A stretch of DNA of 64,000 bases, from NCBI GenBank assembly GCA_944407095.1, contig OX097180.1, forward strand, positions 310,001 to 374,000. The letters are read 5' to 3'. The notes beneath the pieces are model-generated. The model saw nothing but the letters and a program-made list of their open reading frames with translations. It was not told the DNA's origin and did not search any database. Positions within the stretch are counted from its first letter, which is position 1. The number at the start of each line of letters is the position of its first letter. Shown here piece after piece: positions 5,964 to 64,000 of this stretch. The position numbers and the translations under genes are program-made. The stretch comes from Candidatus Enterousia intestinigallinarum. GTDB taxonomy: Bacteria > Pseudomonadota > Alphaproteobacteria > Rs-D84.

Positions 5964-6176
5964 GTTGACAGGTATTCTGTCAATGGGGTGTGACTACCCT
6001 TATGAACGCGTCGGAATATACAAACATGGCGCACAAAGTGCGCTGTTTTAATATTACGACGAAAAATAAACTCCTGAACATTTAGGTCAGGAGGGTCGCT
6101 GAATATCAAATACGCGACACAATTCGTTCAATTGTAGTCAACCTCCTGACCACCAAAACGCTTGGTGGTTTCTTTT
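5964..6176 (+). ncRNA. Structured leader RNA, copy A (upstream of cassette 1)
   Basis: Cis-regulatory RNA candidate. P1: TTGACAG 5965-5971 with CTGTCAA 5977-5983, then GGGGTG. P2 is long range: TGACTAC 5991-5997 with GTAGTCA 6134-6140, extended by TGAACG 6003-6008 with CGTTCA 6125-6130. An inserted hairpin (CGTCG...CGACG with GCGCAC/GTGCGC inside) lies at about 6009-6064. P3: CTCCTGA 6071-6077 with TCAGGAG 6087-6093. P4: GTCGC 6095-6099 with GCGAC 6114-6118 around the conserved GAATAT loop. A second CTCCTGA at 6143-6149 can compete for the P3 partner. It ends with terminator stem ACCACCAA/TTGGTGGT (6149-6156, 6162-6169) and TTTCTTTT. This copy is the most diverged, yet every helix is kept by paired changes. 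Confidence 0.8.
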
Positions 6177-10871: not shown

Positions 10872-11054
10872 ATAATAAAAAACCACCGGAAAATATTTTC
10901 AGGTGGGTTGGAGGTTCACAACTATTAGTACGAATAGCGTGCTTTATTGGATATTCAGCACCCTCCAACCCCAGGGTTGGAGAACTTTTCATTTCGTCTA
11001 TACGAAACGCGTACTATCGGGTTGTGACACCCCATACCGGCAACACGCCGATAC
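10872..11054 (-). ncRNA. Structured leader RNA, copy F (upstream of the Xre regulator)
   Basis: Read on the minus strand. P1: CGTATCGG/CCGGTATG (11054-11047 with 11039-11032), then GGGGTG. P2: TCACAAC (11026-11020) with GTTGTGA (10921-10915), extended by TAGTACG (11015-11009) with CGTACTA (10931-10925). A local hairpin TTTCGT/ACGAAA follows. P3: CCAACC (10979-10974) with GGTTGG (10969-10964). P4: GTGCT (10960-10956) with AGCAC (10942-10938) around GAATAT. The terminator is CCACC-tGAAAA/TTTTC-cGGTGG, then TTTTTT, ending near 10874. TATAAT at 11066-11061 places the transcript start at P1. Helix sequences differ from the other copies but still pair. Confidence 0.8.
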
Positions 11055-13671: not shown

Positions 13672-13833
13672 AAAAAACCACCAAAATATTTCAGGTGGTT
13701 GGAGGTTAGTAACTATTAAAGGTAATAGTGTCGTTTATTCAACATATTCACGAACCCTCCAACCCGTATCAGTTGGAGTATTGATTTCCTTTAAGAGGTT
13801 ACTACACCCCGCATTGGTAAAATCACCAATGCA
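13672..13833 (-). ncRNA. Structured leader RNA, copy B (upstream of cassette 2)
   Basis: Read on the minus strand. P1: GCATTGGT (13832-13825) with ACCAATGC (13818-13811), then GGGGTG. P2: TAGTAAC (13804-13798) with GTTACTA (13713-13707), extended by TTAAAGG (13794-13788) with CCTTTAA (13722-13716). P3: CTCCAAC (13778-13772) with GTTGGAG (13763-13757). P4: TCGT (13753-13750) with ACGA (13734-13731) around GAATAT. A second CCTCCAACC overlaps terminator stem AACCACC/GGTGGTT (13700-13694, 13682-13676), followed by TTTTTT. TATAGT at 13844-13839 places the start at P1. The T-run can also pair with AATGAAAA just before the AGGAGG site. Confidence 0.82.
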
Positions 13834-20066: not shown

Positions 20067-20095
20067 TTGATTTCCCACATATGTATTGTTATTAT
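20067..20095 (+). promoter_or_regulatory. Promoter of leader RNA copy C
   Basis: TTGATT (20067-20072) and TATTAT (20090-20095), spacer 17. The predicted start falls at P1 of the leader. Confidence 0.65.
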
Positions 20096-20101
20096 AAAAA
20101 T

Positions 20102-20273
20102 GATATGGGGTGTTCCCATATTGGGCTTAAGAACCCATCCGTTGCGTCGCCACGACGTAAAATGAAAATCCAACCTGTTGGGTTGGAGTGTGTTGAATAT
20201 ATTGAATAAAACACGCAATTCAACGGATTGTTCTTAAACTCCAACCACCTGAAGATTTCTGGTGGTTTTTTCA
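20102..20273 (+). ncRNA. Structured leader RNA, copy C (upstream of cassette 3)
   Basis: P1: ATATGGG 20103-20109 with CCCATAT 20115-20121, then GGG. P2: TTAAGAAC 20127-20134 with GTTCTTAA 20230-20237, extended by ATCCGTTG 20137-20144 with CAACGGAT 20221-20228. A local CGTCG-cca-CGACG hairpin follows. P3: CCAACC 20170-20175 with GGTTGG 20181-20186. P4: GTGTT 20190-20194 with AACAC 20210-20214 around GAATAT and AATAAA. A second CTCCAACC (20239-20246) overlaps terminator stem AACCACC/GGTGGTT (20243-20249, 20261-20267) with a T6 run. The T-run can also pair with ATGAAAAA before the GGGAG site. Confidence 0.85.
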
Positions 20274-20303: not shown

Positions 20304-20744
20304 ATGAAAAAATATTTATTAATCGCCGGGTTGATTTGCACGGTAATAATTCCCCCGGCCGGCGCAGTCACCAAATGCGTGGAATTAAATAGTAGCACAA
20401 CGTGTACATCAAATTACACTGCATACTACAATAAAACTGATTGGGCAGCCACGTGTAATACAAATGGAGTAAGCATCCCAATAAGTGGCATAGGAATATG
20501 TAGTAGTACACAGGGAACTCAATATCAAACAGCAGCAGAACTAGATAGATCGTCCACACTGGACGAAAACATAAATTGCTGGTGTAAAATGACGAGTCCT
20601 GCTGTATCGCGCTGGGTGTATGTTTCAACGCCCACGTATGCCGATGGTTGCTTTAAGCTTTGCGCATACTACTGTGCAAACACTATTCGCATTCAGAGCT
20701 CTACGTCTTTCCGGTCTGCGTTGTTTAGTAATTTGTCTGACTAA
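20304..20744 (+). CDS. Cassette 3 first gene: exported Cys-containing protein
   Basis: Unknown function; 146 residues. The signal peptide MKKYLLIAGLICTVIIPPAG, then AVTKCVELNSSTTCTSNYTA. The middle, about 60 residues, is unlike the other copies. The conserved INCWCKMTSPAVSRWV block is followed by a five-Cys tail (GCFKLCAYYCANT) and the family ending FRSALFSNLSD. The ATG at 20304 follows GGGAGATAAG. Exported, probably disulfide-bonded. Partner gene 12 bases downstream. Confidence 0.87.
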   Translation: MKKYLLIAGLICTVIIPPAGAVTKCVELNSSTTCTSNYTAYYNKTDWAATCNTNGVSIPISGIGICSSTQGTQYQTAAELDRSSTLDENINCWCKMTSPAVSRWVYVSTPTYADGCFKLCAYYCANTIRIQSSTSFRSALFSNLSD

Positions 20745-54790: not shown

Positions 54791-54964
54791 TGTCGGTGGG
54801 TATTCCGCCGATGGGCTTAAGAACCCGTCAGTAGCGTCGGCAAGACGTAAAATAAATCCAACCGTATTTTGGTTGGAGTGTGGTGAATATATTGAATAAA
54901 CCACGCAATTACTACTGATTGTTCTTAAACTCCAACCACCTGAAGATTTCTGGTGGTTTTTTCA
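54791..54964 (+). ncRNA. Structured leader RNA, copy D (upstream of cassette 4)
   Basis: P1: TCGGTGG 54793-54799 with CCGCCGA 54805-54811, then GGG. P2: TTAAGAAC 54817-54824 with GTTCTTAA 54921-54928, extended by GTCAGTAG 54827-54834 with CTACTGAT 54912-54919; copy C has ATCCGTTG/CAACGGAT here, a clean set of paired changes. Hairpin CGTC-ggcaa-GACG. P3: CCAACC 54858-54863 with GGTTGG 54871-54876. P4: GTGG 54880-54883 with CCAC 54901-54904 around GAATAT. The terminator AACCACC/GGTGGTT (54934-54940, 54952-54958) overlaps a second CTCCAACC. Confidence 0.85.
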
Positions 54965-63874: not shown

Positions 63875-64000
63875 AAAAAACCACCAAAATATTTCAGGTG
63901 GTTGGAGGTTAGTAGCTATTGTAATAATAGTGTTGTTTATTCGTGATATTCACAACCCTCCAACCTAAATTGTGGAGGCGATATTTTATGTCATCTCTGA
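63875..64000 (-). ncRNA. Structured leader RNA, copy E (cut by window end)
   Basis: Minus strand, 3' part only. P3: CCTCCA (63978-63973) with TGGAGG (63962-63957). P4: GTTGT (63956-63952) with ACAAC (63936-63932) around GAATAT (63951-63946) and GAATAAA. The P2 3' strand is present (AATAGCTACTAA), but its partner lies outside the window. Terminator AACCACC/GGTGGTT (63903-63897 with 63885-63879) with a T6 run. Sequence is close to copy B near the gene. Confidence 0.78.

Follow-up and report, generated by a model that had tools for sequence, protein, structure and literature searches.

Candidate transcription attenuators before dozens of genes in Candidatus Enterousia, distantly related to the phage small RNA sRNA-Xcc1

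The window, i.e., the whole 64,000-nucleotide stretch of DNA analysed, contains six leaders of one common fold; the genome (1.0 Mb) has 24 of them, and relatives have as many as 55 each. These leaders look like real, tightly co-evolving on/off switches placed before dozens of genes, and the comparative analysis of their sequences indicates that each is probably a cis-acting transcription attenuator built on an antisense module of the sRNA-Xcc1 type. The original prediction had proposed an attenuator from competing copies of one strand at positions 20239–20273; as an observation it is partly confirmed, and its interpretation is partly supported. The participation of two long-range pairings (X:X' and Y:Y') in the device, its recurrence throughout the order Rs-D84 and its kinship with sRNA-Xcc1, a new result of the present analysis, go beyond that prediction.

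Leader architecture and distribution

The 5' half of a leader consists of hairpin P1, hairpin P2 with an 8-nt loop (X), segment Y, an optional hairpin, strand a and strand b; the 3' half comprises hairpin P4, hairpin P5 with loop Y', segment X', strand c and an intrinsic terminator, followed by the ribosome site and the gene. Strand b can pair either with a (helix P3) or with c (helix P6), and the last 3–4 nt of strand c are the start of the 5' arm of the terminator. A putative -10 box lies a few bases 5' of P1, and similar boxes precede other copies. The features of copy D are as follows.

20090–20095, + strand: putative -10 box TATTAT, 7 nt before P1 (from sequence)
20103–20121, + strand: P1 hairpin, loop GTGTT (from folding)
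20123–20136, + strand: P2 hairpin GGG-CTTAAGAA-CCC, the loop being X
20137–20144, + strand: Y, ATCCGTTG, complement of Y'
20169–20175, + strand: strand a, TCCAACC, 5' half of P3
20181–20188, + strand: strand b, GGTTGGAG, common to P3 and P6
20190–20214, + strand: P4 hairpin with conserved GAATAT-NNN-GAATAA
20216–20230, + strand: P5 hairpin, the loop being Y'
20230–20237, + strand: X', GTTCTTAA, partner of X
20239–20246, + strand: strand c, CTCCAACC, 3' half of P6, with a 4-nt overlap with the terminator
20243–20267, + strand: intrinsic terminator stem-loop, then a T-run (from folding)
20243–20249 and 20261–20267, + strand: terminator arms AACCACC and GGTGGTT, with the T-run at 20266–20271
20304–20744, + strand: regulated gene, a secreted Cys-rich protein of 146 aa with no Pfam family

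The other copies in the window are listed below.

5985–6169, + strand: copy A leader, P2 to terminator, class GTCAGGAG/CTCCTGAC; gene start 6203
10883–11054, - strand: copy B leader, P1 to terminator; XRE/HTH_3 gene start 10860
13676–13832, - strand: copy C leader, P1 to terminator; secreted Cys-rich gene start 13645
54792–54958, + strand: copy E leader, P1 to terminator; secreted Cys-rich gene start 54995
63879–64000, - strand: copy F leader, the 5' part past the window edge and present in locus L011; gene start 63848

Strand c, the terminator arms and the T-run of copy D were all found where the original prediction had placed them, and the three segments said to have changed together in copy A are present as CTCCTGA (6071–6077), GTCAGGAG (6086–6093) and CTCCTGAC (6143–6150). 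Exceptions to the pattern described are copy C, whose upstream strand is CTCCAACt (CCAAC in place of CCAACC), copy F, with only CTCCA, and copy B, where, owing to an extra C, the terminator and the end of strand c coincide only with a shift of one base.

The recurrence of these strands is far above chance. The window contains 11 occurrences of CTCCAACC, the expected number being 1.05, and none of 100 shuffles contained at least 11; the pattern GGTTGGAG-N30-60-CTCCAACC gave 16 matches in the 1.0-Mb genome, and a control pattern gave none. Genome-wide copies were counted with R1, a covariance model spanning the 67-nt module, which found the 24 copies in the window genome and matched 179 of the 201 genomes of the order, with 49, 43 and 55 copies in the relatives G171, G023 and G183; since the relatives include redundant genomes, these counts do not represent independent events. 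The assembly of the window is congeneric with Candidatus Enterousia excrementavium: one copy (G018:C5:3994-4059) is identical to a copy in JADINE010000017.1 (locus L123) of that species. The genus has been assigned to Rs-D84, an order of uncultured gut bacteria whose genomes measure about 1 Mb (PMC12306168). In G040, a member of another family of the order (L076, L084, L092), P4 is much longer, the module measures 100–113 nt, the P6 strands are different and the genome carries 20 module copies. Pattern-scan matches in Paenibacillus and Omnitrophota (L128, L148) were attributed to chance, since the model did not confirm them, and a direct search for DNA similarity between a window copy and phages revealed none.

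Co-variation, terminators and long-range pairing

Strands b and c fall into several classes within the order (GGTTGGAG/CTCCAACC, GGCTGGAG/CTCCAGCC, GTCAGGAG/CTCCTGAC and GGCAGGAG/CTCCTGCC), and other strand classes, including GGCGGGAG, GACTGGAA, GGGCGGAT and GACCGGAA, are found outside it. Across 82 modules, 97.6% of the alignment cells of P6, P4 and P5 are paired, a value that leans upward because the alignment was fitted to the same structure; 15 of the 20 pairs show two-sided changes, and the level of pairing was reached in none of 500 shuffles. The alternative helix is maintained as well: in 45 of the 55 leaders with a non-standard b, the upstream region is a better partner for the leader's own b than for GGTTGGAG, and the median rank of the own b for this pairing among 22 other b sequences is 1. 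A terminator-like hairpin overlapping strand c was found in 159 of 195 members of the order (about 18% lack one by the hairpin scan), in 12 of 20 other Alphaproteobacteria and in 2 of 86 gamma-proteobacterial loci, while 17 of 212 control windows contained any terminator-like hairpin in a stricter scan. The letters shared by strand c and the terminator co-vary with the 3' arm (AACC..GGTT, AGCC..GGCT). This is the arrangement of a transcription attenuator, in which a terminator and an antiterminator exclude each other on paper and are both maintained by co-variation. The switch proposed in the original prediction thereby gains strong comparative support, b co-varying with both a and c in many strand classes and the 5' arm of the terminator co-varying with the end of c in which it begins.

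The same data bear on the reading that there is no switch at all, the small RNA simply ending at the terminator and the gene living on constant read-through. A terminator combined with a stable fold would indeed yield a discrete RNA of ~170 nt, and the kin of the module are annotated as sRNA; strand a, however, would then be unneeded, yet it co-varies with b, and the distance from the element to the start codon is short and regular before many unrelated genes, so that this reading is considered very unlikely. A further claim of the original prediction, pairing of the T-run with AATGAAAA before the ribosome site as a source of translational control, has fared less well: the pairing is visible in the fold, yet it was found in 82 of 169 leaders with a T-run against 65 when the downstream bases were shuffled, and composition thus explains most of it.

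The predicted fold contains two further pairings, X:X' and Y:Y', whose complementarity is private to the individual leader in almost all cases. The figure of 97% obtained for X:X' is biased, because P2 was located by the same match; the unbiased tests are those of duplex energy and of the Y helix. The X-Y/Y'-X' duplex has an energy of -17.0 kcal/mol with its own partner and -10.6 kcal/mol with swapped partners, and a Y helix of at least 6 bp is formed by 91% of own and 28% of swapped partners. Most modules match their own leader best within their genome; L219 contains a leader whose X-Y fits the module before it and not the one that it belongs to. No further copy of X-Y was found over the start site in the window's order (-8.4 for own and -8.2 for swapped partners).

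In five of the six window copies, i.e., in the full leaders, nested minimum-energy folding gave the terminated form, with X-Y:Y'-X', P3 and the terminator; the exception is copy F, whose 5' half is absent from the window. Forcing P6 in the nested folds costs 0.5–12 kcal/mol before any pseudoknot gain, so that on paper the default state would be OFF. The assignment of the OFF and ON states is presumptive and depends on nested energies that ignore pseudoknots, because X:X' could topologically persist in both states.

Relationship to sRNA-Xcc1 and to other known RNAs

Outside the order Rs-D84, model R1 has matches in 16 genomes of further Alphaproteobacteria with small genomes, and a second model built with those loci (R2) reaches other classes of the phylum, with one or two copies per genome. 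Rfam assigns eight of the nine loci so reached in other classes to RF02221 (sRNA-Xcc1) at 65–77 bits and at the position of the R2 match, L288 not being reported; taken over all scans, the gamma-proteobacterial loci score 63–77 bits with RF02221. The reverse search of the intermediates with RF02221 gave 66 bits for L275 and also matched L271, L272 (45 bits), L278 and L276, so the homology is continuous through intermediates in both search directions. The RF02221 structure line contains the same closing helix, P4 and P5 as the module, and the consensus folds share the AAUA..AAUAA internal loop of P4 and an unpaired 3' segment. The window copies themselves stay below the RF02221 gathering score (53 bits), the window scan at gathering yielding only tRNAs, and copy D gives no RF02221 match at E up to 1. 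Since RF02221 does not report copy D even permissively, the window leaders, as judged from their sequences, are distant relatives of sRNA-Xcc1 connected through intermediates and are not direct members of the family.

In gamma-proteobacterial phages, prophages and plasmids, the module is located just 5' of antirepressor, KilA-N, P22AR and other small genes; in Xanthomonas integrons, a 2025 study places sRNA-Xcc1 upstream of symE (PMC12444791). The gamma-proteobacterial loci carry P2-X-Y upstream of the module and a second copy, X2-Y2, over the ribosome site, e.g., TTTCGAAAAAACAAGGAAAACCCCATG in Vibrio phage VPBES and AACAAATAAGGAGGTCATCATG in Escherichia phage PhiR5_2; the match to the start site is -18.5 for own and -12.9 for swapped partners (86 distinct modules). 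The two expression platforms thus differ. The gamma-proteobacterial loci have the start-site copy and almost never a terminator that overlaps strand c (2 of 86). In the window's order, this terminator is present and the start-site copy absent; the same module therefore appears to drive two outputs depending on lineage. Copy numbers differ too, with 24 copies in the window genome and one or two in each gamma- or beta-proteobacterial genome matched.

These data suggest a function-level reading for sRNA-Xcc1, annotated as a trans-acting small RNA: with complementary targets both upstream and on the gene start site, it appears, in phages and prophages where it stands just before antirepressor or symE-like genes, to block the start site of the neighbouring gene. 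They also suggest that one antisense module serves either start-site cover or transcription termination, and that a 1.0-Mb genome uses it at 24 loci; all of this lends itself to direct tests in phage systems of E. coli and Vibrio. A description of sRNA-Xcc1 as a C4-like start-site blocker was not found in the open-access papers searched.

The gamma-proteobacterial relatives resemble the C4 RNA of phages P1 and P7 (RF01695, c4-a1b1) in having two short antisense segments, an antirepressor gene downstream, and cognate targets both upstream and over the start site. In the phage P1 C4 antisense RNA, segment b' covers the start site and a' provides specificity (PMC5320573; also PMC12197685). Cover of the start site of the downstream gene is seen in the gamma-proteobacterial relatives and was not found in the window's order, where the predicted output is, in contrast to C4, a terminator. 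Because no RF01695 covariance match was obtained in the gamma-proteobacterial loci up to E = 10 or in loci of the window type, the likeness is one of working principle and not of family membership. Multi-copy C4-like RNAs of Acinetobacter baumannii, reported as processed sRNAs (PMC5320573), are likewise a phage antisense fold amplified in a bacterial genome, whereas the window copies are gene leaders with terminators.

Several observations concern the surroundings of these loci. Many gamma-proteobacterial loci (e.g., L289, L292 and L296) contain a terminator-like hairpin with a T-run (CCAAC..GTTGG, CCCACC..GGTGGG) between the upstream X-Y and the module. A leader of the sRNA-Xcc1 type precedes a gene with a P22AR domain in L418 (E. 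coli GMM060) and L419 (a Klebsiella plasmid); in GMM060 this unit adjoins an ISL3-family transposase, and 13 similar places occur in the chromosome, as if the unit travelled with an insertion sequence. Beside the sRNA-Xcc1 locus of G939 (L292:1203-1763) there are repeated weak CRISPR-repeat matches, several of them 66 nt apart, which are possibly a CRISPR array.

Proposed switch and the genes downstream

In the OFF state, upstream X-Y would pair with Y'-X' of the module and open P5; pairing of b with a in P3 would free strand c, which could form the intrinsic terminator with the next bases, and termination is expected after GGTGGTTTTTT. In the ON state, the module would fold on itself, with P5 closed and b paired with c in P6, and the terminator, deprived of its first 3–4 pairs, would let transcription continue into the gene. 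Termination by RNA polymerase and the identity of the OFF state are presumed here, and the balance may be tipped by a ligand, a protein, a matching RNA or the speed of transcription. In the gamma-proteobacterial relatives, X2-Y2 would allow the module to cover the start site of the gene that follows, in the manner of phage C4 RNA. The start-site copy would have been lost from the window's order and replaced by the terminator, the module having been amplified in Candidatus Enterousia and its relatives.

The window leaders share with terminator/antiterminator leaders of the riboswitch type the competition of three strands (a, b and c) and the overlap with the terminator, but differ from them in the hypervariable private long-range pairing and in the absence of an Rfam riboswitch match. 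A known riboswitch or another Rfam family was rejected as an explanation, the window giving no match at gathering and nothing recurrent at permissive thresholds. An orphan riboswitch, in which a small molecule would bind the P4 internal loop (RAAUAW on both strands) and stabilise P6, causing antitermination, would fit the same attenuator architecture, only the trigger being another. The letters of the P4 loop are the most conserved unpaired positions, and 24–55 copies before diverse genes resemble a signalling regulon; on the other hand, the RF02221 kin are described as small RNAs and not as aptamers, and the regulated genes suggest no common metabolite, which makes such a ligand rather improbable. 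Two ligands were considered unlikely: c-di-GMP, since no GGDEF gene was found in the window genome, and c-di-AMP as a general ligand, its cyclase being present in the window genome and missing in the RNA-carrying G040 and G417. The diadenylate cyclase (DAC) domain of the window genome lies at G000:C1:431071-431421.

In the window's order, the genes following the leaders encode mainly secreted Cys-rich, List_Bact_rpt and small XRE/HTH proteins, others having no known family; in genomes that do not belong to the order, reading of the sequences revealed genes of type IV pilin-like, outer-membrane, XRE and antirepressor-like proteins. Two or three full leaders stand in series before one gene in several genomes; L068/L069, L073, L172, L214, L215, L216 and L219 have 2–4 serial leaders per gene, ~200–260 nt apart.

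Bare modules, devoid of P1–P3, X or Y, also occur (L021, L214:681-745, L215:1481-1548, L218:471-538 and L219:499-563) and may be small RNAs or sponges. Those at L021, L214:681, L215:1481 and L219:499 cannot switch as proposed, because a, X or Y is missing; standalone modules and mismatched clusters (L214, L215, L219, L021) show that decay, or some other role, is also found in the family. If they were released as small RNAs, modules could act in trans and flip leaders with the same key by X-Y pairing. The accumulation of sRNA-Xcc1 in Xanthomonas as an 88-nt RNA with mapped ends (PMC2996969), the existence of standalone modules with a -10 box of their own and the private character of the X and Y keys are in keeping with such an action, but the own leader was usually the best partner when pairing between the leaders of one genome was tested, and for the standalone modules no other leader of the same genome is a clear match; trans-acting antisense control is thus unlikely. 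Little probability is likewise given to protein-dependent antitermination, in which an RNA-binding protein would recognise P4-P5-P6 and stabilise P6: the module is compact and conserved, and the bare-module array of L021 could titrate such a protein, but no candidate protein was identified.

Beyond the preferred reading of a cis-acting attenuator, a wider scenario can be proposed, tentatively and with some doubt, in which an antisense RNA of the phage antirepressor type was captured by small-genome gut Alphaproteobacteria and amplified into genome-wide transcription switches; the private two-part X/Y keys would insulate sister copies from one another, tandem copies would serve as gates in series, and bare modules would be keys that act in trans. 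The L021 array (G023:C12) consists of four bare modules 3' of a carD-like gene, and single bare modules have their own -10 box and usually occupy the 5' end of a full-leader cluster.
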